Of a DNA stretch of 64,000 nt, positions 3,344-29,831 are shown piece after piece. Under the pieces are notes generated by a model, which was not told the origin of the DNA, searched no databases, and saw only the letters and a program-made list of their open reading frames with translations. The position numbers were made by a program, and so were the translations under genes. Source of the DNA: Flavihumibacter fluvii (GTDB lineage Bacteria > Bacteroidota > Bacteroidia > Chitinophagales > Chitinophagaceae); assembly GCF_018595675.2 (NCBI RefSeq), contig NZ_CP092333.1, forward strand, positions 396,001-460,000, written 5' to 3'. Positions within the stretch are counted from its first letter, which is position 1; each line of letters begins with the position of its first letter.

Positions 3344-3501
3344 GTTGCCGGGTAGTATGGATTTGATATTAATTTTTTCTAAATTATGTAATAAATAATA
3401 TATAAAATTAAAAAATTACCATTATTTGTCCATTAAAAAAAGATTAACAATTCATTTGGTACCTAATTTCACACCTTCTATTTTTTAAAATACACACAAA
3501 C

Positions 3502-6500: not shown

Positions 6501-6723
6501 GAAATTGAGGGAAGTTAGCCTTGGCTACCGTTTTGACCTGGTTAAAATGGGTATCAGCAAAGTGATTACTGGTGCAACTTTCTCAGTTGTTTCCCGTAAC
6601 CCATGGCTGATTTATGCCAAAACAAATGATTTCGATCCATCTGAGATCAGTAATACATATGGTGAGAATTCACAGTTACCTGGAACAAGGTCACTTGGAT
6701 TTAACTTGAAACTGAACTTCTAA
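3502..6723 (+). CDS. SusC/RagA-type TonB-linked outer membrane transporter
   Basis: A 1073-residue protein with a signal peptide (MRKLLSLMVIGSLCCTMAFG). A carboxypeptidase-regulatory-like domain follows at about residues 24-100, then a TonB plug at about 118-235 with VLQGPAAAALFGAQGSNGAI, then a long beta-barrel ending LKLNF. There is no STN domain, so signalling to an anti-sigma factor is not expected. It forms the outer-membrane channel of a SusCD pair with the next gene and imports an oligomer or peptide driven by TonB. No glycoside hydrolase or peptidase lies in this operon, so the substrate cannot be named. The next ATG of the operon is 29 bases after its stop. Confidence 0.95.
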   Translation: MRKLLSLMVIGSLCCTMAFGQTRSVTGKIVDDKGNAVPYASVKVKGNTRGASADVNGVFTIKVNTGDVLEISAVGQKTSTITIGDQSLFTVPMQSTGEQGLQEVVVTSAYSTKRTLRSTSYSAQTVSDEKLNTIRQADVNNALAGKVAGVQVRSQSAAKLGSSGYASVRLRGESGLTGSSDVLYVVDGTVIPTSSAGDINPDDIEDLSVLQGPAAAALFGAQGSNGAIVINTKKAKRSQKGVGVEFNTGVTFDNVYILPDYQNSYAGGGISDLMQYKWEAGQPEEWKALDGKYYHDYSDDASWGPRMVGQEYIPWYAWYPGSEYSYKTAKLTPQPTNSRDFFNTGVSWNNNLSFAKSGDNYTVRLSYTNLSIKGLIPESEMQRNNLSLFTTVDVTNKLQLGANVTYLNQVTTGEFDDGYANQSTGSFNSWYHRNLDMDKMRELKDLRSPEGILASWNHKNPTVYDPAAPLNFYGGNYWYNFYSYFDNVVNKNVRDRLFGDVSLTYKITNDLKVRATYRKNQLNTNTENRTYSILDASATQTGLRAGYYTDQTYSNRENFEGLISYAKKIKDFSVTANAGFDIMRSKYKDIKANTVGGLNAPDFFALSNSKDPISYSNYREESKYRAGFIRGDVGWKNMIFAEFTIRKDYFSALRPDDNGILSKSFGASFVFSDLTKNSLPFISFGKIRASWGEIPQSLNPYQVGFNYGISTNQWNGNFLMSTPNTLIDPNIKGAVSTQREIGLDMKFMKNRFGFSVTYWDGTIKDFPYTLPIPATQGFTSYLTNIGEIKKSGVEVLVNINAVRTKDFNWDITGTWAKLIENQVVEIAPGLDRITYATGDFGTSSYVAYLVHQTGARWGQMFGGGFKRIDGNKVVGADGLFVREADVYLGSVLPDFTGGVQNSLSYKNFILNFNIDYQQGGKFFSLSDFWGSFSGLTAKTGTVNDKGNPVRDAVADGGGVRVDGVDADGKPVTSYVDAQTYYHQFQSKGISENSIYDLTFVKLREVSLGYRFDLVKMGISKVITGATFSVVSRNPWLIYAKTNDFDPSEISNTYGENSQLPGTRSLGFNLKLNF

Positions 6724-15383: not shown

Positions 15384-15962
15384 ATGAGTAAATTTCTGAT
15401 CGTTGGACTGGGAAATATTGGCGCGGAATACGCCAATACCCGCCATAATATTGGTTTTGACATCATAGATGAACTGGTCAAAAAGATGGATGGCCATTTC
15501 AGGACCGACAGGCTGGCAGATGTCGCGGAAATCAGGATCAAGGGTAAACAGCTGGTTTGTATAAAACCCAGCACCTATATGAACCTGAGCGGCCGCGCTG
15601 TTAAATACTGGAGCGATAAAGAAAAAGTGCCGCCTGAAAATATCCTCGTATTGGTAGACGAACTGGCCCTGCCCCTGGACCGCCTGCGGATAAGGGGATC
15701 TGGCAGTGATGGCGGCCACAACGGGCTTCGCAGCATCCAGGAACACCTTGGTACAACCGAATACCCCAGGTTGCGGTTTGGTATCGGTAACAACTACCCG
15801 AAAGGTCGGCAGGCGGACTTTGTCCTCAGTAAATGGACTGCTGAAGAATGGCCACTGGTGCTGTTTAAAGTGAAGAAAAGTGTCGAACTTATTGAGCAAT
15901 TTGTACACGGGGGACTGGCATCAGCCATGAACTTGTATAACAATATGGTCTACAAGTTATGA
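15384..15962 (+). CDS. pth: Peptidyl-tRNA hydrolase
   Basis: Pth releases tRNA from peptidyl-tRNAs that drop off the ribosome. The protein has 192 residues, the usual length. Visible motifs are GLGNIGAEYANTRHNIGFD with the catalytic histidine, KPSTYMNLSG, VDELALPLDRLRIR in place of the usual DDLDLP-type segment, and GHNGLRSI. A possible -7 box TATCTTTC lies at 15351-15358, so it may have its own promoter downstream of the rplY terminator. Confidence 0.96.
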   Translation: MSKFLIVGLGNIGAEYANTRHNIGFDIIDELVKKMDGHFRTDRLADVAEIRIKGKQLVCIKPSTYMNLSGRAVKYWSDKEKVPPENILVLVDELALPLDRLRIRGSGSDGGHNGLRSIQEHLGTTEYPRLRFGIGNNYPKGRQADFVLSKWTAEEWPLVLFKVKKSVELIEQFVHGGLASAMNLYNNMVYKL

Positions 15963-16097
15963 ATATTGCTGATGAATGGTTATTTTCGCAAACCGCTGCT
16001 AAGTTTAGCATTCTATTCAATAACACCTATGTAATTCCAGGACCGTCAAGGTCCACTTATAATCTATGATTTTTCAATCATTAAACCCTTATTGAAT

Positions 16098-16709
16098 ATG
16101 AAGATATTCTGTATAGGCCGTAATTATGTGGCACACGCCAAGGAGTTGGGCAATGATGTGCCTGATGAACCGGTTGTCTTCATGAAGCCTAAAAGTGCGC
16201 TACTTCAATCGCATACTCCATTTTATTACCCGGAGTTTACCAACGAATTGCATTATGAATGTGAGCTCGTCCTCCGGATCAGTAAAAATGGAAAATATAT
16301 CCAGGACCGCTATGCCAGTAAGTATTATGATGCTATAACCACCGGTATTGATTTTACAGCCCGGGATATCCAGAATGAACTGAAAGAAAAAGGCCTTCCC
16401 TGGGAAAAAGCAAAAGCCTGGGATAATTCAGCCGTTATTGGCAAATGGGTTCCACTTGATGACATCAAGAATAAAAAGGAAATTACGTTTAGCCTGTTAA
16501 AAAACAAGGAAGTAGTGCAGGAAGGCAACTCCAACCTTATGATCTTCAATTTTGATAAAATAGTCGCACATATTTCCAATTATTTCTCAGTAAATATCGG
16601 CGACCTCATTTTCACCGGGACACCTGCCGGCGTTGGAGAATGTGTGGTAGGAGATGAACTGGAAGGTTATATGAACGACCAGCTCATGTTCGCAGTAGAA
16701 ATAAAATAA
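16098..16709 (+). CDS. Fumarylacetoacetate hydrolase-family protein
   Basis: The protein has 203 residues from ATG 16098 (MKIFCIGRNYVAHAKELG); the in-frame TTG at 16092 was rejected. The FAH fold signatures are present: RNYVAHA, the metal-binding ECELVLRI (the two glutamates), GIDFTARDIQ and FTGTPAGVGE near the C-terminus. Members cleave or decarboxylate beta-keto acids (fumarylpyruvate hydrolase or oxaloacetate decarboxylase activity). The substrate cannot be told from sequence alone. It lies 61 bases upstream of the E1 fusion gene, which has its own -7 box. Confidence 0.9.
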   Translation: MKIFCIGRNYVAHAKELGNDVPDEPVVFMKPKSALLQSHTPFYYPEFTNELHYECELVLRISKNGKYIQDRYASKYYDAITTGIDFTARDIQNELKEKGLPWEKAKAWDNSAVIGKWVPLDDIKNKKEITFSLLKNKEVVQEGNSNLMIFNFDKIVAHISNYFSVNIGDLIFTGTPAGVGECVVGDELEGYMNDQLMFAVEIK

Positions 16710-16741
16710 AAGCTGCCAATATCCACTGACACGTGTTCGTT

Positions 16742-16749
16742 TATATTTG
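16742..16749 (+). promoter_or_regulatory. Consensus -7 element of the first E1 fusion gene
   Basis: TATATTTG is an exact match to TAnnTTTG, 21 bases upstream of the ATG at 16771. It also shows that the in-frame TTG at 16747 is not the start. No -33 TTG is clear. Confidence 0.5.
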
Positions 16750-16770
16750 TGTGAGATACTACCACCCAAT

Positions 16771-18837
16771 ATGATCGGACCAGAAATTTTACAGAAAGCA
16801 TATTACCATATGTGCCTTGTGCAACATATGGCTGACATTTACGAACAGCATCGCACTGTTTGTAAGTATGTGCATTCAACGTCCCGCGGGCATGAAGCCA
16901 TCCAGCTTGCCCTCGCTTACCAGCTGGAGCCGGCAGATTTCGTGAGTCCGTATTACCGCGACGAAAGCCTTTTACTTGGCCTGGGCTTCACCCCCTACCA
17001 ACTCATGTTACAATTATTGGCCAAAGCAGATGATCCATTTTCCGGCGGCAGGGAATACTATAGCCACCCTAATGCAAAGGGCGCTGGCAAGCCAACGATC
17101 ATCCACCAGAGTAGCGCAACAGGTATGCAGGTTATTCCAACGACAGGCATAGCCCAGGGGGTAAAATTCCTTGAGCAATACCTGCCCGGCCAGCTAAAGA
17201 AAACGCGCTCCGGCGATTGGCCGGTGGTGGTTTGCTCCCTTGGTGATGCCAGCCTTACTGAAGGTGAAGTGAGTGAAGCCCTCCAATTTGCTGTTCTTAA
17301 GAAATTGCCTATCCTTTACCTGGTTCAGGATAACGGTTGGGGAATCAGTGCCCGCGCTGAAGAATCACGCATCATGGATGCCTGGGAATATGCGGCTGGT
17401 TTCCCCGGATTGGAAAGAATAAAGATCAATGGCAGCGATTTTGATGAATGTCATTTTAAGTTGGAACAAATCGTACGAACCATCCGCAGGGAACGCCGGC
17501 CATTTATCGTCCAGGCCAACGTACCCTTATTGGGCCACCATACCAGCGGGGTCAGGAGAGAGTTTTACCGCACGGCTGCAGACCTGGAAAAAGATGCAGC
17601 ACTGGATCCGCGCCTTATCCTCAGGAAAAGGCTTAAAACTATTGGTGTCAATGAAATTGAGTTGCTGGAAATAGAAAAAAGGGCGGAACAGGAGATCAGT
17701 ACCAGTTTTCAGCAAGCGATAGAAGCATCTGAGCCAGATCCGGCAACTGTAGCTGATTTTGTTTTTGTTCCAACCCCGGTCATTGAAGAAAAGGGACTTC
17801 GGGAACCCGGAGTCCGCGATAAAATCATGATGGTGGACGCAGCCTTGTTTGCGATCAGGGAAATTATGGAAGAATACCCCGAAGCGATATTTTACGGGCA
17901 GGATGTAGGCCGGCGCCTGGGTGGTGTTTTTCGCGAAGCTGCAACACTGGCTGAAAAATTCGGTGATCACAGAGTATTCAATACCGCTATACAGGAAGCC
18001 TATATCATTGGTTCAACTGTCGGGTTGAGTGCAGTTGGATTAAAGCCTATCGTCGAAGTGCAGTTTGGTGATTATATCTATCCCGGACTAAATCAACTGG
18101 TGTCAGAAATCGCTAAATCAGCTTACCTGAGCTGCGGGAAATTTCCTGTCCAGACCCTGATCAGGGTGCCTGTTGGTGCATATGGTGGTGGTGGCCCTTA
18201 CCATAGCGGCAGTATAGAATCAACCCTTTTATCTATCAAAGGGATTAAAGTGGTGTATCCGTCTAATGCTGCAGATATGAAGGGGTTGATGAAAGCTGCT
18301 TTCCTGGATCCTAATCCGGTGGTAATGCTTGAGCACAAAGGACTTTACTGGAGTAAACTCCCCGGTACTGAAACAGCAAGAATGGAAGAGCCTTCCTTCG
18401 ATTATATCATACCACTGGGCAAAGCGAGTATCGCACTGCCCGCATTTTCCTTGCGTGTAGAAGAAGGCAACAGCTGTTGCGTTATCACCTACGGCATGGG
18501 GGTGTATTGGGCAAAAGCAGCAGCTACAGCATTGCCTGGCCAGGTAGAAGTAATTGACCTTCGGTGTTTATATCCATTAGATGAGCAACTGGTATTTGAA
18601 ACAGTAAAAAGGCACGGTAAGTGTTTGGTGCTTACTGAAGAACAACAGAATAATTCCTTTGCCGAGGCACTGGCAGGAAGAATTGGCTACCACTGTTTTA
18701 AATGGTTGGATGCACCTGTAGAGGTAATGGGTGCCCTGAACCTCCCTGCAGTACCGATGAATATGGGACTGGAGGCTGCCATGTTACCCAATGCCGATAA
18801 ATTACGCATCCGCCTCGAAGCCTTATTGGACGCATAA
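16771..18837 (+). CDS. Thiamine-diphosphate E1 dehydrogenase, alpha and beta subunits fused
   Basis: The protein has 688 residues from ATG 16771. Residues about 1-330 are an E1 alpha subunit with HSTSRGHEAIQLALAY and the ThDP motif GDASLTEGEV to QDNGWGIS. Residues about 355-688 are an E1 beta subunit (FYGQDVGRRLGGVFREA, VEVQFGDYIYPG, PYHSGSIES). The set resembles branched-chain 2-oxoacid dehydrogenase E1, which oxidatively decarboxylates 2-oxoacids and passes the acyl group to an E2. No E2 or E3 gene is adjacent, so these would be supplied from elsewhere. A second, longer fusion lies at 56060. The two are distinct paralogues. Confidence 0.9.
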   Translation: MIGPEILQKAYYHMCLVQHMADIYEQHRTVCKYVHSTSRGHEAIQLALAYQLEPADFVSPYYRDESLLLGLGFTPYQLMLQLLAKADDPFSGGREYYSHPNAKGAGKPTIIHQSSATGMQVIPTTGIAQGVKFLEQYLPGQLKKTRSGDWPVVVCSLGDASLTEGEVSEALQFAVLKKLPILYLVQDNGWGISARAEESRIMDAWEYAAGFPGLERIKINGSDFDECHFKLEQIVRTIRRERRPFIVQANVPLLGHHTSGVRREFYRTAADLEKDAALDPRLILRKRLKTIGVNEIELLEIEKRAEQEISTSFQQAIEASEPDPATVADFVFVPTPVIEEKGLREPGVRDKIMMVDAALFAIREIMEEYPEAIFYGQDVGRRLGGVFREAATLAEKFGDHRVFNTAIQEAYIIGSTVGLSAVGLKPIVEVQFGDYIYPGLNQLVSEIAKSAYLSCGKFPVQTLIRVPVGAYGGGGPYHSGSIESTLLSIKGIKVVYPSNAADMKGLMKAAFLDPNPVVMLEHKGLYWSKLPGTETARMEEPSFDYIIPLGKASIALPAFSLRVEEGNSCCVITYGMGVYWAKAAATALPGQVEVIDLRCLYPLDEQLVFETVKRHGKCLVLTEEQQNNSFAEALAGRIGYHCFKWLDAPVEVMGALNLPAVPMNMGLEAAMLPNADKLRIRLEALLDA

Positions 18838-18858
18838 TTAATGCCATTATTCCTTTCT

Positions 18859-18885
18859 TCCTGTCAATTTTCCACTGCTGTATTT
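18859..18885 (+). promoter_or_regulatory. Element shared upstream of both transposase-like genes (copy 1)
   Basis: Ungapped alignment by eye with 25230-25256 gives 23 identities in 27 positions. The core TTTTCCACTG-N-TGTATTT is identical apart from the N. It lies 66 bases upstream of the ATG at 18952. No TAnnTTTG box sits at the expected distance. It may be a regulator-binding site or a remnant of an ancestral transposon end. Confidence 0.55.
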
Positions 18886-18951
18886 CCTTTTGTATAGCTT
18901 GATTATTTGTTGCAGATTCATAGTAATAAAAATGAATTACATCAAATTTGC

Positions 18952-19506
18952 ATGGCCAATAGAATTTTAAAAGGCGCGCATATTTCTGAACGAAAGTTCA
19001 GGGAATTGGTCAAGCTGTTCAGTGAGGATCTCACAGCAACTCAAATATCAAGTATCACCAGTCTTAGCCGCATTACCATCAATCAATACCTGAAAAAAAT
19101 AAGGGAAGCCATTGCATTACATTGTGAATTACAAGCTCAAAATACATGGCCGCAAAAAGGTAAATGGCCAATGAGTTCCAGGTATGGTATTATTCGATCA
19201 AACCAGCGGTTATCTGCAATTCCTTTATCAACAGAGCAGCAATATAATAGCTGTCCTGATTTTATTGCGATCGCAGATTTCAAAAGCTGGAAATTGTTTC
19301 GCCTTCCTGAAAACCTGGACGCAAACGGAAGACCAGTAATGGATCAGATGTCCGCTTTTTGGGGATTGACTAAAAACCGGTTGCATAAATTCAGGGGCTT
19401 GCATGCAGCATCCATTTACCTGCATGTCAAAGAATGTGAGTTCCGGTATAATTACAGGCACCATAATTTAAATGAACTCCTGCTCGAGATACTTTTGAAA
19501 AACTGA
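18952..19506 (+). CDS. IS1595-type transposase-derived DNA-binding protein, catalytically degenerate (copy 1)
   Basis: The protein has 184 residues from ATG 18952; the in-frame TTG at 18907 was rejected because the paralogue at 25346 aligns from this ATG. Residues 8-58 form a helix-turn-helix block (SERKFRELVKLF, LTATQISSITSLSRITIN) like the N-terminus of IS1595/ISXO2 transposases. Residues 134-170 match their C-terminus (SAFWGLTKNRLHKFRGL, YLHVKECEFRYN). Between them the catalytic core is shortened: no DExYFG-type first aspartate is seen, and the third catalytic residue, normally E before SFW, is S134. No inverted repeats bracket it. It is probably a domesticated protein, perhaps a regulator of the adjacent SusCD operon (inference). 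Confidence 0.75.
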   Translation: MANRILKGAHISERKFRELVKLFSEDLTATQISSITSLSRITINQYLKKIREAIALHCELQAQNTWPQKGKWPMSSRYGIIRSNQRLSAIPLSTEQQYNSCPDFIAIADFKSWKLFRLPENLDANGRPVMDQMSAFWGLTKNRLHKFRGLHAASIYLHVKECEFRYNYRHHNLNELLLEILLKN

Positions 19507-19872
19507 TCGGGTATTTGCCATTCATGCAAAGTATTCGCCATTTGTCAATGTTGCTATAGTCCCATCATGATAAGAGATTTTTTCGGGATGTCATGAAAGC
19601 CTTAATGGTATTGCGTTTCATTGGTTTGTTATTAAAACAATAAGAATTTTCGAGTGGTTAATTTTTTTTTAACGAAAAAATCCTGCCAAGTTTTCATCTG
19701 TTTTCCTCTCATACCAGATTTACTCCATTGGTGCAATTTTCTTTGTCATTTTTTTTCTGACAATTGATCAGGCTGTTATCCGAAGTTTTCATGAACGATA
19801 ATGCCGGCAAATAATTGAAGGCAGTTCAACTTTACTATTCGGATAATTTTATTCTGAAAAAACTATCTGTCT
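19507..19872. other. Intergenic region upstream of second susC with weak copies of the shared element
   Basis: There is no gene in these 366 bases. At 19681-19703 TCCTGCCAAGTTTTCATCTG resembles the left part of the element at 18859. At 19724-19740 TCCATTGGTGCAATTTT resembles its core (TCCACTGGTGTATTTT in the 25230 copy). Both are weaker than the 18859/25230 pair. There is no terminator after the transposase-like gene, so read-through into susC is possible. Confidence 0.45.
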
Positions 19873-22800
19873 ATGAAGAAAATTATAAGCCTTTGGTTGT
19901 TCATGCTATTCGCTATTGCAGAGATGAAAGGCCAGGGGCGGACGCTTACCGGAAGAGTTACAGATGCTAAAACAGGGGTGCCTATAATTGGCGTAACTGT
20001 TTCTGTAAAAGGTGGCAAGGCTGCCACCCAAACCAATAATGAAGGTATATATCGCCTTGCTGATGTGCCTGAGGGGAGTAGCCTCATTTTTTCGTTTATC
20101 AGTTACCGGTCATTTGAAAGGAAAGTTTTATCTGGTACCACACTCGATGTTGCATTGGAGGAAGAAGCCAGCCAGATGAATGAAGTAATTGTTACAGCCA
20201 ATGCCATTAAGCGCGAAGCCAGGAGTCTTGGTTACGCTACCTCTACCATTAAAAATGATGAACTCACCAGGGGTAAAGACCGAAGCGTATTAAACTCCCT
20301 GCAGGGTAAAGTGGCTGGTGTTCAGATCACAGGAAGCTCAGGCGGTGTGGGTAGTTCTACCAGGATCGTATTTCGCGGTGGCACTTCACTCATCGGAAAT
20401 AACCAGGCTTTGATGGTAGTGGATGGTATACCGATTGATAATTCCCAGATTGATACAAAGGATAACCTGAACAACCAGGTTGATGCCGGTAACCGGGGTA
20501 ATGACCTGAACCCGGATGATATTGAAGCTGTTACTGTGCTGAAAGGTCCGGCTGCCGCAGCCTTGTATGGCAGCAGGGCTTCTAACGGTGCCCTTATCAT
20601 TACCACCAAATCGGGCAAACTTAAAGGGGGTAAGAAAACTGAAATCATCGTGAGCAGTGCATACAACCAGGAATCGATTTTACGCCTGCCGGAATTTCAG
20701 AATGAGTATGGCCAGGGTGGCAAGAAAGAACCTGACTCCAGGGAGAATTTCAGTTGGGGTCCCAAATTTGATGGAAAGGTAAAACCATGGGGACAACAGA
20801 TTGGCGATTCCATCCGGGTTAAACCATATGTCGGATTGAAAGACAACGTGAAGGAATTTTTCGATTACGGTCACACGTTTAATAATGGCGTTTCCTTTTC
20901 ACAGAATAATGATAATTCAGCCTATTTTGTATCATTCAATAACCTCGACCAGCAGGGTGTAATGCCTGGTACAGCGTATAACCGTACTTCAGTACGCCTC
21001 AATGGAAGTACAGAATTTGCCCATAATTTTTATAGCAGTGCCAGCGTGAATTATGTCAGGGCTACCGGCGACCTTTCTACACAGGGCCAGGGAGCTTCAC
21101 CTTATGAACAGATCTTGCAAACCCCCCGTGATATCTCGCTGTTGGAACTTAAGGATTACCGGAATAAGTTTAACGACCTCTATGGGTACTATGGTGCATA
21201 TACAGTGAACCCCTGGTATTTCCTGGGCGAAGATGCCTATAAATCAGCCGTTGACCGTTTACTGGCTAACGTGCAGGTTGGGTATAAACCGGTAAAATGG
21301 ATGGACATCAATTACCGGATCGGTACAGATTTTTCTGCCGATAAACGCCGCCAGAATGTTTCTAAAAGGGTGATAACCGATCCGTTAAACCAGAATTACG
21401 GTAACCGCTATGATGGCAAATATGAAGAAACCAGTATCGATATTCGTGAGTTTACTTCCGACCTGATGATCAGTGGAAAAAGGAAACTGGGCGAAAACCT
21501 GAGTTTGTCGGTATTGTTAGGGCACAACGTAAGGAGCCGCGATTTTTCGAGCCAGATCAGTACTGCGAACGGACTGGTGGTGCCCGGTGTTTATAACCTT
21601 GCTAACTCCAAGAACAGGCCAACCACCAGTAACCAGATCATTAACCGCAGGCTTTGGGGCATATATACTGATATAAATTTCGCCTACAAAAATTACCTTT
21701 TCTTTGGTATCACTGCCCGGAATGACTGGTCTTCCACTTTGCCGGATGGCAACAATAGTTTCTTTTATCCCAGTGTAAATGCCTCTCTGGTATTCAGTGA
21801 ATTATTCAAACTACCTGAATTCATTACCTATGGCAAATTGCGTGGAAGCATTGCACAGGTGGGTAATGATGCCCCGCCATATGCCCTTCAATCGGTATTT
21901 GAATCAGGTACTGTAACTGATGGTTATGCGAATTCTAAGCTCAATTTTCCTTTGAATGGTGTGCCGGGATTTACGCAGGGCGATGTTATTGGTAACCCTA
22001 ACCTGAGACCGGAAATCACAACATCTTTCGAAGGAGGGATAGACCTTGGACTATTTAATGACCGGGTCGGCATAGAAGCAACAATATATTCAAATGAAAG
22101 CCGCGACCAGATTCTTACAGTACCCATTGCAGCAAGTTCAGGATTTACCAGCCAGACCCTGAATGCGGGTTCTATCACCAATAAAGGCATCGAACTCCTT
22201 TTAAGGGCACAACCTGTGCGTACCCGGAATTTTACCTGGGAAATAACAGGAACCTATACACGAAACAGGAGCCGTGTGAATGAATTATTCCCTGGTGTTG
22301 AACAGATTGAACTGGGTGGTTTTGTAGGTGCCACTTTAGTTGCAAAAGTAGGTCAACCATATGGCACCTTCTTTGGCGCCGGGTTCCTCAAAGATCCTGA
22401 GGGAAGGGTAGTAGTGGATGAAGCTACCGGTTATCCCATTACAGACCCGGTCGCGAAAACACATGGTAGTATTCAACCTGATTATATGGCCAGTTTGTTG
22501 AATTCATTCAGCTTCAAAGGATTTACATTCACCTTTTTACTCGATGGCAGGAAAGGTGGGGTATTATATTCCCGCACAAGATCTCTGCAAACCTTTGTGG
22601 GTACGGATCCACGTACATTATATAACAACCGTGATGCTTTTGTTGTACCAAATAGTGTGATCCAGACAGCAGATGGAAAATTCCAGGCAAATACAGTACC
22701 TGTTTTGGATGCGCAGGATTACTGGACAAACTATGTGGCTAATAATGCCATTGACCAACTGATCGATGCCAGTTTCCTTAAACTGCGCGAAGTAAGCATC

Positions 22801-23016
22801 AACTACCGTATTCCAAAAAGTTGGATTCAAAACTGGCCTGTAACGGCTATCCAGGTTGGCTTGAGCGGAAGAAACCTCTTCCTCTGGACACCAGCTGAAA
22901 ATACCTATTCAGATCCGGAAGCCAGTTCATTCGGAACAAGTAACATCCAGGGTTTTGAATATGGTACAATCCCATCGATCCGCAGTTATGGCGCTAACCT
23001 GAAACTGATTTTCTAA
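19873..23016 (+). CDS. SusC/RagA-type TonB-linked outer membrane transporter (second locus)
   Basis: A 1047-residue protein with signal peptide MKKIISLWLFMLFAIAEMKG. A carboxypeptidase-regulatory-like domain follows at about residues 23-98 (LTGRVTDAKTGVPIIGV). A TonB plug is at about 110-240 with VLKGPAAAALYGSRASNGAL, and the rest is barrel, ending LKLIF. There is no STN domain. It forms a SusCD importer with the next gene, whose ATG is 16 bases after its stop. The locus is bracketed by two transposase-derived genes. No enzyme gene accompanies it, so the substrate is unknown. Confidence 0.95.
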   Translation: MKKIISLWLFMLFAIAEMKGQGRTLTGRVTDAKTGVPIIGVTVSVKGGKAATQTNNEGIYRLADVPEGSSLIFSFISYRSFERKVLSGTTLDVALEEEASQMNEVIVTANAIKREARSLGYATSTIKNDELTRGKDRSVLNSLQGKVAGVQITGSSGGVGSSTRIVFRGGTSLIGNNQALMVVDGIPIDNSQIDTKDNLNNQVDAGNRGNDLNPDDIEAVTVLKGPAAAALYGSRASNGALIITTKSGKLKGGKKTEIIVSSAYNQESILRLPEFQNEYGQGGKKEPDSRENFSWGPKFDGKVKPWGQQIGDSIRVKPYVGLKDNVKEFFDYGHTFNNGVSFSQNNDNSAYFVSFNNLDQQGVMPGTAYNRTSVRLNGSTEFAHNFYSSASVNYVRATGDLSTQGQGASPYEQILQTPRDISLLELKDYRNKFNDLYGYYGAYTVNPWYFLGEDAYKSAVDRLLANVQVGYKPVKWMDINYRIGTDFSADKRRQNVSKRVITDPLNQNYGNRYDGKYEETSIDIREFTSDLMISGKRKLGENLSLSVLLGHNVRSRDFSSQISTANGLVVPGVYNLANSKNRPTTSNQIINRRLWGIYTDINFAYKNYLFFGITARNDWSSTLPDGNNSFFYPSVNASLVFSELFKLPEFITYGKLRGSIAQVGNDAPPYALQSVFESGTVTDGYANSKLNFPLNGVPGFTQGDVIGNPNLRPEITTSFEGGIDLGLFNDRVGIEATIYSNESRDQILTVPIAASSGFTSQTLNAGSITNKGIELLLRAQPVRTRNFTWEITGTYTRNRSRVNELFPGVEQIELGGFVGATLVAKVGQPYGTFFGAGFLKDPEGRVVVDEATGYPITDPVAKTHGSIQPDYMASLLNSFSFKGFTFTFLLDGRKGGVLYSRTRSLQTFVGTDPRTLYNNRDAFVVPNSVIQTADGKFQANTVPVLDAQDYWTNYVANNAIDQLIDASFLKLREVSINYRIPKSWIQNWPVTAIQVGLSGRNLFLWTPAENTYSDPEASSFGTSNIQGFEYGTIPSIRSYGANLKLIF

Positions 23017-23032
23017 TTGAAAAAAAGAAACA

Positions 23033-24544
23033 ATGCTACGCAAGAATAAATTCTTCCATTCCTTTACCCTGGCTTTTGCACTGCTTACCTTTAGCAGTTG
23101 CAGCAAGGATTTTTTAGACATCAATACAGACCCGAATAACCCAACAAGGGCAACCGTTGACCTCGTATTACCAACTGCACTTGGCGTAAGCGCCTATAAC
23201 CTGGGCAACGGTTACCAGATATTAGGTGGCTTATGGGGGCAATTCTGGACCCAGGGACCCACTGCCAGCCAGTATAAACAAATTGACCAGTATTCCATTA
23301 ACAGCACCAGTTACGGCCGCCAATGGGAAAGTGTATATTCCGGTCCGCTCAGCGATTTTAAATACCTGGTTGATGAAGGTACCCGCACCGGCCAGAATAA
23401 TTATGCCGCCATAGGTAAAATCATGCAGGCATATATTTTCCAGGTAATGACCGACCTGCATGGCGATATACCTTTTTCAGAGGCGCTATCTGCCAATGAA
23501 GGAAATTCAAAACCCAAATTTGATACGCAGGAACAGGTATATGATGGACTTATTGTATTGCTAGACCAGGGGATTGCATTGATTGACGAACAGTCTTCCC
23601 AGCATCCGACATCAGATGATTTTTTCTTTAATGGTGATATGCACCTTTGGAAAAAATTTGCCAATACGCTGAAGCTGAAAATCTTCCTCCGGCAAGCCTA
23701 TACTCGTCCTGCAGTTGCAGAAGCAGGTGTCAAAGCCTTATATGCAGCATCTGCAGAATTCATCGATTACCAGGAAGACGCACTGGTGCCCTTTAATACA
23801 GAGCAGTTTAACCAGAATCCATTGTTTGCCACCTACCAGACATTAACCAGCGATAACCTGATCGCCAGTAATACAGTGTTGAACTACCTGGAGGCAACCA
23901 ATGACCCTCGTACCGATGTATTTTTTTCCAGGGCAACCGCCGCACCAAATGCCGGAAGCCATGCGGGTATCGACCAGGGTAACGGACCAAATTTATTGGG
24001 CAACCAAAATGCCAATAGTTATTCAAGGCCCGGTCCGGCAGTAGGTGGCCCAATAACTGCAGATGAACCAGATGGTGGTGCAGCCGCACCTGTGATATTT
24101 ATGAGTTCAGCCGAGAGTTATTTTTTGCAGGCTGAGGCTGTTGCCCGGGGATGGGGCGATGGCGATGCCAGGCAATTATATGAAGATGGCATCCTGCTCT
24201 CATTTTTACATTGGGACATTTCTGAAACAGCCTATGGTAATTATGTTTCGCAAGCTGCAGTTAAATTTCCGGAGGGTGGATCAGCAGAGCAAAAAATACA
24301 ACAGATCATCACCCAGAAATGGGTCAGTTTCTGTGGTACTGAGAACCTCGAAGCATGGAATGAATGGCGTCGTACAGGATACCCGGATATTTTCGAAATC
24401 TCTGCTACAACCAGTATAGGAAATATTTTCCCGGTGCGTATTTTATATGCAGATTCTGAAGTGAGCCGCAATCCCAATACTCCGGCACAGAAAACCGTGA
24501 AAGATAAAATATGGTGGGATGTAAATACAAGCGGACAAAATTAA
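23033..24544 (+). CDS. SusD/RagB-family nutrient-binding lipoprotein (second locus)
   Basis: The protein has 503 residues and a lipoprotein signal MLRKNKFFHSFTLAFALLTF with lipobox FSSC. It begins with the family block DFLDINTDPNNPT, then IMQAYIFQVMTDLHGDIPFSEAL and LWKKFANTLKLKIFLR, all of the SusD-like_2 subgroup. The C-terminus KDKIWWDVN is the usual end. It binds substrate on the cell surface as a lid over the SusC of this operon. It is similar in layout to the SusD at 6753 but clearly diverged. Confidence 0.94.
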   Translation: MLRKNKFFHSFTLAFALLTFSSCSKDFLDINTDPNNPTRATVDLVLPTALGVSAYNLGNGYQILGGLWGQFWTQGPTASQYKQIDQYSINSTSYGRQWESVYSGPLSDFKYLVDEGTRTGQNNYAAIGKIMQAYIFQVMTDLHGDIPFSEALSANEGNSKPKFDTQEQVYDGLIVLLDQGIALIDEQSSQHPTSDDFFFNGDMHLWKKFANTLKLKIFLRQAYTRPAVAEAGVKALYAASAEFIDYQEDALVPFNTEQFNQNPLFATYQTLTSDNLIASNTVLNYLEATNDPRTDVFFSRATAAPNAGSHAGIDQGNGPNLLGNQNANSYSRPGPAVGGPITADEPDGGAAAPVIFMSSAESYFLQAEAVARGWGDGDARQLYEDGILLSFLHWDISETAYGNYVSQAAVKFPEGGSAEQKIQQIITQKWVSFCGTENLEAWNEWRRTGYPDIFEISATTSIGNIFPVRILYADSEVSRNPNTPAQKTVKDKIWWDVNTSGQN

Positions 24545-24566
24545 TCTATTTAAAAAAAGGAACATC

Positions 24567-25208
24567 ATGCGAAAGCAAATTATAATTATATGGCTGACCA
24601 GTATCATGGTAACCCTGTCCATCGCATCCTGTAAAAAGGAAACTACAGCTGCTGTTTCGAAAGAAGTTGCTGTAAGTTATCCTGAAATCACTTTGAAAGG
24701 GGATGAAATTGTGATATTACCTGTTGGTGGAACCTTTACGGAAGCAGGTGCTATTTTAAAGGATGATATCACCGGGGCCGAATCTGACCTGCAGCCGGTT
24801 TCAAATAATGTAAATACTGCTGTACCCGGGCTTTATGTAGTGTTATATACAGCTGCAAATGCCAATGGATTTGAAACAACTGTGGGCCGTAAAGTTGCTG
24901 TAACAAGTGTTACGGGTACCTCCAATATTGCCGGTGAATTTATAAGGCCAGCAACCGGAGTCGCTATGACTATCGACCAGTTATCTGAAGGCGTGTACAA
25001 GATCACCAATCCGGGTGGAGCCGGGGTGGGGGCAGCTACTATCGTATATATGGTGGAAACGGAAAAGGATGTGTATAGCTGCCCGGAACAACCTAATGAT
25101 GCAGGATTTATGGCCTTAGAGGATATTGAATTTTCTGAGAACGGAGCTGTTTGGCGGGTATTAAATGCAGGGTATGGTTCGCAGCTACGGTCTTTTGTCC
25201 GGCAATAA
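24567..25208 (+). CDS. Lipoprotein with DUF5011-like Ig domain, SusCD-associated
   Basis: The protein has 213 residues and a lipobox (IASC) after MRKQIIIIWLTSIMVTLS. Residues about 35-115 match a bacterial Ig-like DUF5011 pattern: PEITLKGDEIVILPVGGTF, TEAGAILKDDITGAES, PGLYVVLYTAANANGFETT. The C-terminal part (about 118-213) is beta-rich and resembles the small ligand-binding domains that follow DUF5011 in surface lipoproteins. It lies 22 bases after susD and is the last member of the operon before the second transposase-like gene, 137 bases away. It is probably a surface-binding accessory. Confidence 0.7.
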   Translation: MRKQIIIIWLTSIMVTLSIASCKKETTAAVSKEVAVSYPEITLKGDEIVILPVGGTFTEAGAILKDDITGAESDLQPVSNNVNTAVPGLYVVLYTAANANGFETTVGRKVAVTSVTGTSNIAGEFIRPATGVAMTIDQLSEGVYKITNPGGAGVGAATIVYMVETEKDVYSCPEQPNDAGFMALEDIEFSENGAVWRVLNAGYGSQLRSFVRQ

Positions 25209-25229
25209 ACAATCACTACTGTTAGTTCA

Positions 25230-25256
25230 TCCTGTTTTTTTTCCACTGGTGTATTT
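25230..25256 (+). promoter_or_regulatory. Element shared upstream of both transposase-like genes (copy 2)
   Basis: This copy has TCCTGT, a T-run, then TTCCACTGGTGTATTT; 23 of 27 positions equal the copy at 18859. It starts 21 bases after the lipoprotein gene stop and ends 89 bases before the ATG at 25346. Further down, CGAAG-AA-CTTCG at 25296-25307 is a small inverted repeat. Confidence 0.55.
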
Positions 25257-25345
25257 TATGTTTTTGGAACCCGATAATCTGTGCATATTTAACTCCGAAG
25301 AACTTCGTAATTAGTAACCATCCTGTTGTAACCAAACTTATCCAG

Positions 25346-25996
25346 ATGAAAAATAAAATGCTTAAAGGGGCACATCTGTCAGAACGCAAATGCAGGGAAA
25401 TTGTGAACCTGTTTTGTGAAGACCTGACTGCTACACAAATTGCTGCGATCACCGGCGTCAGCCGGGTTACCATTAATGCATATGTGAAAATGATCCGGAC
25501 GAGGCTGGCTTTGTTTTGTGAGGAGGCTTTCCCTGTTGAACATAAGCCTGATAATTCAATTACTTTAACTCTTAGCGGCGATGAATTGCCAAAGACGCCC
25601 TACTATGGTTTTATGCGGCATGACGGCCAGGTCTTTTCAACCGGACTCACTTCAATGAGCAAGGAACTGGTCTTGAACTGGCAGCGGCAGGTGAGTGGAA
25701 TGCAACCTGCAACCATGGAAGCAATACACGCAGTTGCTGATTTTACAAATTGGCGGTTGTATCGTCGCGATATCTTTAATAATTACCCAATTAAGACTGC
25801 TTCCGATGATATATCCGGCTTCTGGGGCCTGACCCGGAACCGATTGATGAAATTCCGTGGATTAAACAGGAATACCCTCTACCTGCATATCAAGGAATGC
25901 GAGTTCAGGTTTAATCACCGTAATGAGGACCTGCAGTTGAAACTACTTCAAATGATCAGTAAGCATCCCCTGCACGAAACACAATACAGGGCATAA
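25346..25996 (+). CDS. IS1595-type transposase-derived DNA-binding protein, catalytically degenerate (copy 2)
   Basis: The protein has 216 residues. The first 58 residues share 38 identities with the copy at 18952, including LKGAH, EDLTATQI and the SRxTIN recognition helix. Residues 157-191 share 24 of 35 positions (FWGLTxNRLxKFRGL, KECEFRxN). The middle is more complete than in copy 1 (YYGFMRHDGQVFSTG corresponds to the FGLLKRGGKVY part of IS1595 transposases). The first DDE aspartate is still not visible, and the catalytic glutamate is replaced by S157. D132 in AVADF may be the remaining acidic residue. It ends at a strong terminator. It is probably a domesticated protein with a DNA-binding role. 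Confidence 0.75.
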   Translation: MKNKMLKGAHLSERKCREIVNLFCEDLTATQIAAITGVSRVTINAYVKMIRTRLALFCEEAFPVEHKPDNSITLTLSGDELPKTPYYGFMRHDGQVFSTGLTSMSKELVLNWQRQVSGMQPATMEAIHAVADFTNWRLYRRDIFNNYPIKTASDDISGFWGLTRNRLMKFRGLNRNTLYLHIKECEFRFNHRNEDLQLKLLQMISKHPLHETQYRA

Positions 25997-26021
25997 ATTT
26001 TTATTTTCTCATGTGTGTAAC

Positions 26022-26051
26022 GCGGGTAGTTTCTACTACCTGCTTTTTTTT
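26022..26051 (+). terminator. Rho-independent terminator after the second transposase-like gene
   Basis: GCGGGTAGT (26022-26030) pairs with ACTACCTGC (26035-26043), one G-T wobble, loop TTCT, followed by eight T. It closes the locus that starts at 18952. Confidence 0.9.
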
Positions 26052-26131
26052 GTTCTATGCGTAGAATCATATTCTTATGCTTCCATGATAATTAGTTTAG
26101 GGATATTTTATAACCCCACAAATCTAGCATC

Positions 26132-26698
26132 ATGAAATCGCATTTGTTTGTTCCTGCTTTTTTCCTGTTTTCAATAGTATCAGTATCCTGTAATAATTCA
26201 GCTGTTCAAAATGAAGCCACCAGTACAGCCCAACCTGAAAAATCCCTTTCCGGACAGTCAGCCGTTCAGGATGATGATTCACAGAAAGATGTGGTTAAAG
26301 TGGCAATTGGAAGCGCTGATCATACAACCCTGGTGAAAGCTATTCAGGCGGCAAGCCTTGTGGATGTATTATCCAATGCCGGACCGTTTACTGTATTTGC
26401 ACCAACAAATGCTGCATTTGACAAACTTCCTGCGGGTACGGTTGACAACCTGTTGAAGCCCGAGAATAAGGAAAGCCTGGCGAATATCCTCCAATACCAT
26501 GTTTATGTTGGGGGGTTAAAAACCGATATGATGACGGATGGACAGGTTTTAGGCCAGGCTAACGGAGATAAAATTACCATCTCAGTAAAAGATGGAAAAG
26601 TAATGTTGAACGGGAAAGCTACTATCGTGGCATCAGTGCCTGCCAGCAATGGTATCATTCATGTGATTGATGAAGTATTGCTGCCGCCAACGAAGTAA
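26132..26698 (+). CDS. Fasciclin (FAS1) domain lipoprotein
   Basis: The protein has 188 residues. The lipoprotein signal MKSHLFVPAFFLFSIVSVSC has lipobox SVSC, followed by a low-complexity linker to about residue 48. A single FAS1 domain spans about 50-187 with the H1 motif GPFTVFAPTNAAFDKLP and the H2 region NGIIHVIDEVLLPP. FAS1 domains mediate adhesion in many systems. It stands alone and is convergent with the haemoglobin gene at 26725, with only 26 bases between and no obvious terminator. Confidence 0.92.
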   Translation: MKSHLFVPAFFLFSIVSVSCNNSAVQNEATSTAQPEKSLSGQSAVQDDDSQKDVVKVAIGSADHTTLVKAIQAASLVDVLSNAGPFTVFAPTNAAFDKLPAGTVDNLLKPENKESLANILQYHVYVGGLKTDMMTDGQVLGQANGDKITISVKDGKVMLNGKATIVASVPASNGIIHVIDEVLLPPTK

Positions 26699-26724
26699 TC
26701 GTGTAAAATATTCCAGCCTTAACC

Positions 26725-27117
26725 TTATTGAAACGGACCGGGATAAAGAAGTTTCAGTTCCATCGCAACTGCGATGGAACTGGCCCTTTGTAATAGTAAT
26801 TCTGTATTGGGTCCTTCGAAATATGTATAGGCAGTGGATTTGAACAGGCTGAGCCAATGTTCGAAATCAGATTTCTTCAGCGGAAATAAACTATGCAGGT
26901 GTTTATGCACTGCCATTGGGTTGCCATTATACCCGCCTGAATAAAACAGGATATTTTCCCAAAAATCAAACATGACCGGAAGGTGGTGTTGCCAGTTTAC
27001 ATGCACTACTTCCGTAAAGAAATGGCCGATCACCGGATCTTTCTGCACTGAAGCATAGAACGCGTTGATCAGTAATTCAATGTCTGCACGATTTGCAATG
27101 TCATGTTTATTTTCCAT
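26725..27117 (-). CDS. Group III truncated haemoglobin
   Basis: The protein has 130 residues. The truncated-globin pattern is clear: FYASVQKDPVIGHFF, NWQHHLPVMFDFWENIL, GGYNGNPMAVHKHLH and RASSIAVAMELKLLYP. The proximal haem histidine is probably within HKHLH at residues 71-75. The NP-AVH-LH spacing fits group III. The ATG lies two bases after the nosY stop, so it is almost certainly the last gene of the nos operon. A role in binding or detoxifying nitric oxide, the substrate of the step before N2O, is inference. The related Campylobacter Ctb is linked to nitrosative stress. Confidence 0.88.
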   Translation of the reverse strand: MENKHDIANRADIELLINAFYASVQKDPVIGHFFTEVVHVNWQHHLPVMFDFWENILFYSGGYNGNPMAVHKHLHSLFPLKKSDFEHWLSLFKSTAYTYFEGPNTELLLQRASSIAVAMELKLLYPGPFQ

Positions 27118-27119
27118 AA

Positions 27120-27887
27120 CTAAAGGTCTTTATTATTGAACTTTCGAATGGCGAACAAAGCGGGAATGGCCATCCAGAATACCATGACAACAGCTGCAGA
27201 GATAATTCCCTGGCTGCTGCCAAAGAAATCACGGAAAAGTGCGCCTGTAAAGCCCATCATGGCGGATATATCGAGTTGCAGTAATAACAGGATCCGGCCA
27301 AGGTCAATCGGATTGAGCATGCTCATCGCCAGCATGGGCTTTTCCATGGGGTAATCTGCAAACTGGAATAACATCATTAGTACAAGCCCATCGTAAATGA
27401 AAGAAAAATAAAACCAGAGCAACAATGCCAATCCTATGCCTTTGGCTTTATCACGGGTGATAACTGATCCTACAAGGGCCAGGGAAGCAAATACAATACT
27501 GAGCGCCGAAGCTGTTAAAACCAGGGTCAACCCACTGGCATCGGGACTATATAGTAATACTGGAATGCCTATGCCAATACCAGTTGCCAGGAGCAGGGAG
27601 GCCACCAGTCCAAGATAAATACCGGTCAGCAGCTTTGTTCTCCTGATTGGTTGAGCTACCAATAATTCTATGAATTCGCTGCTGTTGTATAGATAGATGG
27701 TACAAAAGATGATACTCACCAATGGCACAATCATGAGACTGATATTCAGCAGCCCCAACATGGCTTTGGCACTATTGTCTTCCAGCAGGAAAAGGCTCAT
27801 GGAAACTACCATTAACAGTCCGGTATAACCAATGATAATCTTGTTTTTGAGGATATCCAGCAATATGTATTTAATGATCTTTTTCAT
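27120..27887 (-). CDS. nosY: ABC transporter permease of the nos system
   Basis: The protein has 255 residues with about six hydrophobic segments (for example IIIGYTGLLMVVSMSLFLL and IGLALLLWFYFSFIYDGLVL). It belongs to the ABC-2 type family of NosY. With NosF it forms a membrane ATPase that, with NosD, serves maturation of the CuZ site of nitrous-oxide reductase. It starts eight bases after the nosF stop. The function rests on context and on the family, since permeases of this class are not distinctive. Confidence 0.88.
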   Translation of the reverse strand: MKKIIKYILLDILKNKIIIGYTGLLMVVSMSLFLLEDNSAKAMLGLLNISLMIVPLVSIIFCTIYLYNSSEFIELLVAQPIRRTKLLTGIYLGLVASLLLATGIGIGIPVLLYSPDASGLTLVLTASALSIVFASLALVGSVITRDKAKGIGLALLLWFYFSFIYDGLVLMMLFQFADYPMEKPMLAMSMLNPIDLGRILLLLQLDISAMMGFTGALFRDFFGSSQGIISAAVVMVFWMAIPALFAIRKFNNKDL

Positions 27888-27894
27888 CGTCAGA

Positions 27895-28602
27895 TTAGTT
27901 ATTTTTCATGATCCTTGCAATAACCTTGTTCAGTTTTTCCTCGCCGGTTTCTTTTTGGAGAGTAGCGATAGCAGTATGAAATTTAAGTTTGCCATCCTGC
28001 ATATACACCACTTCAGTAACCAGGTCATCGAGGTCGCTGAGCACATGTGAGGTAATAAGGGTGAGCTTTCCCTTTGTTTTTTCAGCTTTTATTTTTTCCT
28101 TTAGGATCTCACTGGAAACAGGATCCAGGCCTGCTGTGGGTTCATCCAGGATCAGGATGTCCGGATTGAATAGGAAGGCAAGGCAGGCACTCACTTTTTG
28201 CCGGGTTCCACCAGATAATGTGCGCATTCTTTTACCATACAATGCTTTTAATCCAAATGCTTCCGGTAATTCTTCATCCATGGTTTGGAAGGTCCCCGTG
28301 CGGATATCTTTTATCATTTCAATCACCTGCTGGATCGTCATGTTTTCCGGGAAGCGGCTCATCTGGGGCATGTACCCGATATGCTGCCGGTATTGCCAGT
28401 CGCGGTTGATGTTTTTATTATTGATGGTAATAAATCCGCTGTCTGGTATGACCATACCGAGCAGGCATTTTATAAAGGTTGTTTTCCCTGATCCGTTTGG
28501 CCCGATCAGCGCAATAGTCTGACCCTTATTGCAACTCATGGAAACATTATCCAAAACCTGCAGCCTGGTGAATCTTTTATTGACATTTGTTGCAATGATC
28601 AT
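27895..28602 (-). CDS. nosF: ABC transporter ATP-binding protein of the nos system
   Basis: The protein has 235 residues with all ABC signatures: Walker A GPNGSGKTT, Q-loop IGYMPQ, signature LSGGTRQKVSACLAF, Walker B DILILDEPTAGLDP and the H-loop TSHVLSDLDD. It couples ATP hydrolysis to NosDFY during NosZ maturation. Its ATG overlaps the nosD stop by four bases (ATGA), so the two are translationally coupled. Confidence 0.93.
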   Translation of the reverse strand: MIIATNVNKRFTRLQVLDNVSMSCNKGQTIALIGPNGSGKTTFIKCLLGMVIPDSGFITINNKNINRDWQYRQHIGYMPQMSRFPENMTIQQVIEMIKDIRTGTFQTMDEELPEAFGLKALYGKRMRTLSGGTRQKVSACLAFLFNPDILILDEPTAGLDPVSSEILKEKIKAEKTKGKLTLITSHVLSDLDDLVTEVVYMQDGKLKFHTAIATLQKETGEEKLNKVIARIMKNN

Positions 28603-29831
28603 AGTGGTAAAGGTTTCATCCTTGGGAATTCATCTTTCAGTTTCTCCGGGGTCATACCTGGTAATATCTTTTCTGCCCTTTCAAGCAGGCTTACTATAGG
28701 GCTTCTGAATAACATCATGGCCGTGGCATTTCTTTCAATGATCATGGTGTAGATGCTTAAAGGGCGGTAAGGAACATCACCTGTCCCGTTCCTGTTTAGG
28801 TCATAACCTTCATATTTATCCCAGTAGTTATTGTAAAAGTAATTTAGTACCAGGGAACCATTTGTGGCCAGGTCGAAACTATTGCCCAGGAAATTATTGT
28901 TGTCAATATGATTGTTGTCGCAGGAGGCCTGCAGGATAATGGCATAGCCATTCTGGAGGAAACGGTTATGGTTGATCTGGATCCGGTTACTGCCTTCCAG
29001 GTGGACTGCCGCAGTATTCCGGTAAAACAGGTTTCCCTGTGCACGACTATCTGTAATATCTTTCATCAGAATGCCGTAAGATGCACTGCCCCAGTTTTCA
29101 CGGAATTCATTACCCACCATAACAACGTGATGGCTGTACATCACTGCTACACCTGCGCCATTATTGTTAAATATATTATTCACATAGGTATCACTATGTG
29201 AAAACATGAAATGAAGTCCATAGCGGATATTTTTTGAACTATTGTTGCTTTTGATCACTGATCTTGTAACAAATTCAAAATAGATACCATCGCGATGACC
29301 AGTGATATTGTTGTTGGCAATGACCAGGTGGTCACTTTTCCAGGCATGGATCCCATTGCCCGTGCCAAGTTCGCTTTCCCCTTCACTGCTGATCTGGTTG
29401 CCGGATATGAAACTGCTATCCGCATGCTGGCAATAAATGCCAAAAAAATTATTGATTAAGCGGTTATTCCTGATAGCGATATGTGAAACATTTTTCAATC
29501 GTATGGCTGCCAGGTCATTCATACTTGAATAGCCTGAATGCTGTAAGGTAAATCCCTCAATGATCACATGACTGGAAGTAATGGTAATGATCTCATATTT
29601 ATGCTCCCCTTCCAGGACAGGATGATCAATTCCCAACAAAATAACAGGCTTATTGATCAGGATCCCTTTATCTGCATAAGTTCCTGGCAATACCCTGATT
29701 AGGTCACCAGGAGTCGCTTTCTGTATGGCAGCGTTAATACTTTCGCCAGGATGAACAGTGATTTCCTCTGCCTTAGAAAAGTATGGTGTAAGGCTGATCA
29801 CTAACCCTATGAGAAAAGCTGTTGCTTTCAT
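28599..29831 (-). CDS. nosD: Periplasmic copper-site maturation protein NosD
   Basis: The protein has 410 residues from ATG 29829-29831; upstream in-frame residues to 29852 were rejected because this ATG forms a four-base overlap with the preceding stop codon. Signal peptide MKATAFLIGLVISL, cleaved near SKAEE. The body is a right-handed parallel beta-helix of CASH/PbH1 repeats (about residues 30-360), with many asparagine ladders such as NNFLGNSF and NNRLINNFFG. NosD is needed to assemble the CuZ cluster of NosZ in the periplasm, working with NosFY. It is full length. Confidence 0.93.
   Translation of the reverse strand: MKATAFLIGLVISLTPYFSKAEEITVHPGESINAAIQKATPGDLIRVLPGTYADKGILINKPVILLGIDHPVLEGEHKYEIITITSSHVIIEGFTLQHSGYSSMNDLAAIRLKNVSHIAIRNNRLINNFFGIYCQHADSSFISGNQISSEGESELGTGNGIHAWKSDHLVIANNNITGHRDGIYFEFVTRSVIKSNNSSKNIRYGLHFMFSHSDTYVNNIFNNNGAGVAVMYSHHVVMVGNEFRENWGSASYGILMKDITDSRAQGNLFYRNTAAVHLEGSNRIQINHNRFLQNGYAIILQASCDNNHIDNNNFLGNSFDLATNGSLVLNYFYNNYWDKYEGYDLNRNGTGDVPYRPLSIYTMIIERNATAMMLFRSPIVSLLERAEKILPGMTPEKLKDEFPRMKPLPL

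Follow-up and report, generated by a model that had tools for sequence, protein, structure and literature searches.

Why does a bacterium keep two relatives of a transposase on either side of a SusC/SusD (SusCD) operon? The question is raised by a stretch of 64,000 nucleotides (nt) of the Flavihumibacter fluvii genome (contig NZ_CP092333.1, positions 396,001 to 460,000), referred to below as the window; all features named in it lie on its forward strand. The original prediction was that two same-strand paralogues bracket a susC-susD-lipoprotein operon here, that both descend from IS1595-type transposases, and that both were kept because they serve the operon. Our open reading frame (ORF) calls and BLASTP agree with the arrangement. 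The upstream copy, T1 (18952-19506, 184 amino acids), and the downstream copy, T2 (25346-25996, 216 amino acids), are identical at 84 of 211 residues (40%, E 2e-50), and the genome (5.0 Mb) has no further match at E <= 0.001. We use T as a general name for this IS1595-derived gene of Chitinophagaceae.

We think it likely, from sequence comparison, that T is a domesticated transposase gene whose 3´ end gives rise to a trans-acting small RNA (sRNA) working on susC translation starts in the manner of FopS. FopS and GibS of Bacteroides thetaiotaomicron are described, in the excerpted text of PMC11697453, as multicopy sRNAs in which a single-stranded seed precedes a terminator and pairs with the translation starts of susC mRNAs.

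A family-wide search gave a T match in 69 of 394 genomes, mostly one per genome and a few of them weak or fragmentary. For the survey of neighbourhoods, weak and fragmentary matches were dropped, including those of G034 and G269, and G217 was kept although a contig end cuts its T; the survey then covered the window and, in 64 further genomes, as much as 20 kb of sequence surrounding T, making 65 genomes in 16 genera labelled g1 to g115. The Flavihumibacter group is g1 (14 genomes with T) and a Chitinophaga-like group is g7 (9 genomes).

A conserved seed and hairpin behind T

In 56 of 69 T genes (a count that leaves out one duplicate contig end and one fragment), the stop codon is followed by a short conserved run, the putative seed, and then usually by a terminator hairpin. 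The run reads TTTCTCATGT in 47 of the 69, across ten genera. In g7 it reads GATTTAGATTTTGGTTGATGA and is invariant in 9/9 genomes, with flanks that are little conserved. A strict terminator scan, requiring a mismatch-free stem of at least 6 bp and a T-run, was passed by 43 of the 56 seed-bearing genes, giving the FopS-like order of a seed and then an intrinsic terminator. T2 has both elements: the putative seed TTTTCTCATGTGTG (26004-26017), recognized as the conserved run and by duplex prediction, and the terminator GCGGGTAGT-TTCT-ACTACCTGC with its T-run (26022-26051), found by hairpin scan, which would form the end of the proposed sRNA. All 13 T2 genes are followed by the seed, and none of the four T1 genes is.

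In g86, g100, g43 and one g115 genome, the seed is preceded by a predicted H-type pseudoknot. Across 21 sequences, 98.2% of the cells in the pseudoknot and terminator are paired, and 12 pairs have changed on both sides, compared with 4.8 in shuffles and 0-3 when the structure was slid along the alignment. Seven of these two-sided changes fall in the terminator. The other five fall in the stems of the pseudoknot, where every counted cell is paired (100%). An Rfam search of window positions 15900-28700 returned three sub-threshold matches, the best being L20_leader over the terminator. At gathering scores, the same search of eight relatives found a SAM riboswitch and tRNA, and nothing at the T-linked elements, though FopS itself may not be in Rfam 15.

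Similar elements occur at other places. A second seed-plus-terminator locus is kept in four Flavihumibacter genomes (L317, L274, L326, L263), and the L317 genome has no T besides T1 and T2. We rejected the idea that this locus lies behind a tRNA, as ARAGORN finds none beside it. In G016 (L119, L337), two seed-plus-hairpin elements follow T, 300 nt apart. The complement of the seed, CACATGAGAAA, stands directly before a terminator-like hairpin at eight loci (L248, L258, L268, L276, L333, L343, L351, L358), which might encode decoy RNAs for the sRNA.

Predicted pairing with susC translation starts

The clearest candidate targets are in g7. Allowing up to 3 mismatches, the g7 run has 39 sites in the 9 genomes, compared with 4 for the reversed pattern: nine behind T, nine at a second seed-plus-hairpin locus, one at a further seed-plus-hairpin, six in susC leaders and 14 others. 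At the six leader sites, found in 5 of the 9 genomes, the complement stops 3-5 nt before the ATG. A search for the other seed, as TTTCTCATGTG, gave 138 sites across 13 genomes, compared with 31 for the reversed pattern. Among the 87 of these sites whose context was read, 15, in 8 genomes, are antisense on a susC start codon; some other sites are further seed-plus-terminator loci. In five genomes, CAC stands before ATGAGAAA 63 times and the three other MMC contexts taken together 65 times, which we count in favour of our reading.

In the window, the first 28 nt of the T2 RNA are predicted to pair at 3490-3511, where the start region of a second susC-like gene (3502-6723; ORF call and Pfam) contains ACATGAGAAAA. 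The duplex has an energy of -17.6 kcal/mol, matched or bettered by 2 of 500 shuffles. The bracketed susC, starting at 19873, is not a predicted target, with -7.3 kcal/mol and 299 of 500 shuffles as low. Complementarity to susC starts, the other FopS-like property, is present in the sequences, although weak in the controls below.

Several observations weigh against our reading. The susC leaders that match the g7 run are confined to those five genomes, and the T-adjacent susC of g7 is not a target. Two named Chitinophaga contigs (L029, L030) with T next to susC have a terminator behind T and lack the g7 run. No seed follows 13 of the 69 T genes, the four T1 genes among them, and 13 of the 56 seeds did not pass the strict scan for a terminator. 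The pseudoknot was drawn by us from the first row, itself among the rows counted, and its analysis covers g86, g100, g43 and one g115 genome. In four genomes, in which the context of 41 of the 47 control sites was read, susC starts lie at 9 of 51 CAC sites and at 2 of 41 AAC, ACC or CCC control sites (Fisher p = 0.10), both control matches being AAC, which is also compatible with the seed core; gene starts overall are no commoner at CAC (16/51) than at control sites (13/41). Finally, susC genes that happened to lie in the fetched loci carry a site in 1 of 13 cases in the seed genera and 0 of 21 in g7, a test of little power, and 1 of 41 shuffled sites matched as well.

Controls outside the Chitinophaga-like genomes, by context and by incidental susC genes, are therefore weak, and the evidence for targeting there is suggestive; the g7 leader matches carry most weight. 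In g7, both the run and its predicted targets differ together from those of the other genera.

T as a domesticated transposase gene

The likeness to IS1595 transposases stated in the original prediction is real. T1 and T2 can be aligned over their whole length with transposases of the IS1595 type, with homology over an N-terminal helix-turn-helix (HTH) region and a C-terminal block, and both match NCBIfam NF033547 weakly, at 28.7 and 28.1 bits, respectively, under its 75-bit cut-off; two intact-looking relatives (L053, L032) reach 163 and 171 bits. In the alignment, the region of the first Asp (DESYFG) is deleted, the second Asp is lost and the third acid is Ser in both copies. Because all three of the residues that we take to be the catalytic acids are gone, T1 and T2 are, by alignment, transposase-derived and catalytically dead. 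Unlike IS1595-family transposases, T has no Asp-Asp-Glu (DDE) acids, scores below the family cut-off and is not multicopy: this genome has two copies, both in the window, and most T-bearing relatives have one match. Inverted ends were not found either, with 0 inverted pairs of at least 12 nt (seed 9) around T1 and T2, although shorter or decayed ends could escape such a search. Pfam gave just weak HTH matches under the cut-off for T1 and T2, a PDB sequence search with T2 gave no match, and Foldseek with an AlphaFold model (predicted local distance difference test score 85) gave none at E <= 0.001; among its short matches, the better ones were to LuxR/GerE-type HTHs.

In a tree of 78 rows, 71 T proteins form one clade (support 100) apart from seven intact IS1595 rows, and genera are mostly grouped; the tree was built by a quick method with support from the Shimodaira-Hasegawa-like approximate likelihood ratio test only, and has several long branches. 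The ratio of nonsynonymous to synonymous change (dN/dS) was estimated for 18 close pairs, T1 lying outside this set. Of the 16 pairs with finite dS, 15 gave 0.024-0.088 and one gave 0.17; two were saturated. Because T proteins form one clade, are mostly single copy and have low dN/dS, we conclude that T is a domesticated gene and not a decaying insertion. That the copies were kept, as originally predicted, is in line with this purifying selection. T1 is shortened and fast-evolving in the tree, where its rows form no single supported clade.

IS1595-like proteins also occur in two other Bacteroidota families, f33 (L213, L214, L215, L218, L219) and f39 (L217, L220, L222, L223, L225, L227), mostly as one full-length copy per genome and, by eye, with at least one catalytic acid gone. 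Motifs CATGACTA or CATGACCAG lie near these genes, which are perhaps further domestications.

Association of T with SusCD operons

The operon between T1 and T2 encodes a SusC-like TonB-dependent transporter (19873-23016; ORF call and Pfam), a SusD-like lipoprotein (23033-24544; PF12771) and a lipoprotein with a bacterial surface Ig-like domain (24567-25208; PF16403). A T1-type copy and orthologues of the susD and lipoprotein genes co-occur in the same four Flavihumibacter genomes (the window, G007, G008, G010). Ten others have T2 alone, with neither a T1-type copy nor this SusCD; in two of the ten (G002 and G006, the latter 55% complete), a contig end breaks the sequence at T. A further genome, G011 (75% complete), gave no T match. 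On a species tree of 13 Flavihumibacter genomes, which does not contain G010, presence of the SusCD requires at least three changes. T2 clusters with the single T of genomes that have no such operon. From this distribution, T1 goes with this SusCD, and T2 is a solo gene kept elsewhere in Flavihumibacter.

Across the survey, susC is the next gene downstream of T, ~320-680 nt away, in 20 of 65 genomes and 6 of 16 genera (g1 4/14, g7 9/9, g91 1/1, g100 4/5, g115 1/2, g40 1/3). In 46 of 65 genomes, T lies behind FAH and/or E1 of an rplY-pth-FAH-E1 housekeeping run; for the window, Pfam was used to check these gene labels. In all nine g7 genomes, T is directly upstream of susCD at a locus without these housekeeping neighbours, and L029 and L030, which cluster with g7, show the same order. 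By score, the T-adjacent susC belongs to the window type in g1, g91, g40 and 7 of 9 g7 genomes, and of a distant type in g100, g115 and G204, with G295 intermediate. We also considered a SusCD hotspot behind E1 that is independent of T, and rejected it: in 16 genomes with E1 and without T, tblastn found no susC within ~1.5 kb behind E1, a search that could overlook a distant susC. In g3 and g100 (L164, L172, L119), T or its SusCD is followed by genes that by eye resemble LytTR regulators.

The association proposed in the original prediction thus survives in part. Adjacency in six genera and a T1-type copy found just with SusCD support it, but T is not bound to SusCD. Homologues without a SusCD neighbour, which were to count against the link, are largely what was found, as in 45 of 65 genomes susC is not the next gene after any T. 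For this reason, and because T2 persists where the operon is absent, we conclude that the copies do not form a pair that serves a single operon; the regulatory link that emerges instead is the proposed RNA behind T2.

The gap between T and susC contains a further element, CCAYYYRTCA-N21-GATAA, of exactly 36 bp. In the window, a motif search placed a repeat, CCATTCATG, at 19518 and the element, CCATTTGTCA-N21-GATAA, at 19538-19573 (together 19518-19573). The element is found in T-susC gaps of three genera (window, L112, L113, L115, L146, L178), namely at 4/4 Flavihumibacter T1 loci and in one genome each of g91 and g115, with two copies in G128, although the motif was defined from the same sequences in which it was counted. 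The rest of the fetched sequence, 3.3 Mb counting overlaps, holds a single 37-bp match, in L029. The half-motifs stand in the opposite order in four g100 gaps, and the element is absent from the T-susC gaps of g7 and G217. We regard it as a candidate operator.

A trans-acting RNA and its alternatives

We propose a single domestication of an IS1595-type transposase, in an ancestor shared by many Chitinophagaceae. Its protein would have lost catalysis; because the HTH region and the transposase-like C-terminal half were kept under strong purifying selection, T probably binds nucleic acid. The 3´ end of the T mRNA would carry a regulatory RNA with a short seed, preceded in four genera by a pseudoknot and mostly followed by an intrinsic terminator; this RNA could be freed from the mRNA or come from its own promoter. 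The seed may then pair with susC mRNAs from other parts of the genome at their translation starts. This would probably block ribosomes or initiation, as FopS does in Bacteroides, and keep the transporter messages off. In Flavihumibacter, T would have been duplicated around the SusCD-lipoprotein operon, with T2 keeping the RNA and T1, which has no seed, staying with the operon and diverging. These data would suit a division of labour: T1, or some other regulator, would control its own operon on DNA, and the T2 locus would act in trans. A bolder version, which we consider rather unlikely, is that the dead transposase and the 3´ pseudoknot RNA form a domesticated ribonucleoprotein in which T carries the seed to susC mRNA or DNA, an RNA-guided regulator derived from a DDE insertion sequence (IS); in Chitinophaga-like genomes, its seed would have changed along with its targets.

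The idea closest to the original prediction is that T binds DNA in the T-susC gap and so regulates the SusCD next to it, the downstream element being merely a terminator. This is possible but doubtful. It draws on the HTH region, on the adjacency to susC in six genera set beside the lack of susC behind E1 in T-less genomes, on the restriction of the T1-type copy to SusCD, and on the 36-bp element; yet most genomes keep T with no adjacent susC, the element is absent from g7, where linkage is strongest, and from G217, and a bare terminator would leave the conserved seed, the pseudoknot and the susC-start sites unexplained. That T is a decaying IS remnant beside SusCD by chance seems to us very improbable. 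IS1595 relatives are widespread and often multicopy, and T1 is shortened and fast-evolving, but dN/dS of 0.02-0.09, the mostly single copy, the grouping of genera in the tree, synteny kept in 46 of 65 genomes and the failure to find inverted repeats around either copy all speak against it, and for T2 it is already contradicted.

Comparison with known systems

The proposal bears on post-transcriptional tuning of the dozens of SusCD transporters in Bacteroidota other than Bacteroides. If the proposed trans-acting sRNA is real, a locus conserved in 11 genera would be a case of transposon domestication giving a protein and an sRNA together, and its seed-target pairs in Flavihumibacter and Chitinophaga are open to testing. 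Among the matches listed in the open-access literature, we found for Chitinophagaceae no IS1595-derived domesticated gene with SusCD and no such sRNA. Nor did any of these matches combine a conserved dead DDE transposase with a susC sRNA, a pseudoknot and a switch of seed and targets from one genus to another.

TldR proteins, RNA-guided transcription factors that we take to be nuclease-dead TnpB, offer one comparison. As in the ribonucleoprotein version of our model, a dead transposon protein and an RNA regulate surface genes, according to the excerpted text of PMC13418256. TldR has a TnpB fold and acts on DNA, whereas T is DDE-derived and contact between T and its RNA is hypothetical. The IS200 tnpA sRNA of Salmonella is likewise a regulatory sRNA from a transposase transcript, and its authors stress, in the excerpt available, that the RNA was domesticated and not a regulatory protein; unlike the T RNA, it comes from the 5´ end, belongs to IS200 and has virulence targets (PMC12594629). 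The T2 RNA resembles FopS in its seed before a terminator and, from sequence alone, in its complementarity to susC starts. FopS differs in being conserved within Bacteroidaceae, and the excerpted account mentions neither a pseudoknot nor a transposase host gene for it; the same account describes FopS-14 as a family member derived from a 3´ untranslated region, and another six-member sRNA family encoded beside transposases or invertases (PMC11697453). Small RNAs that target susC and an sRNA derived from a transposase have thus each already been published (PMC11697453, PMC12594629).

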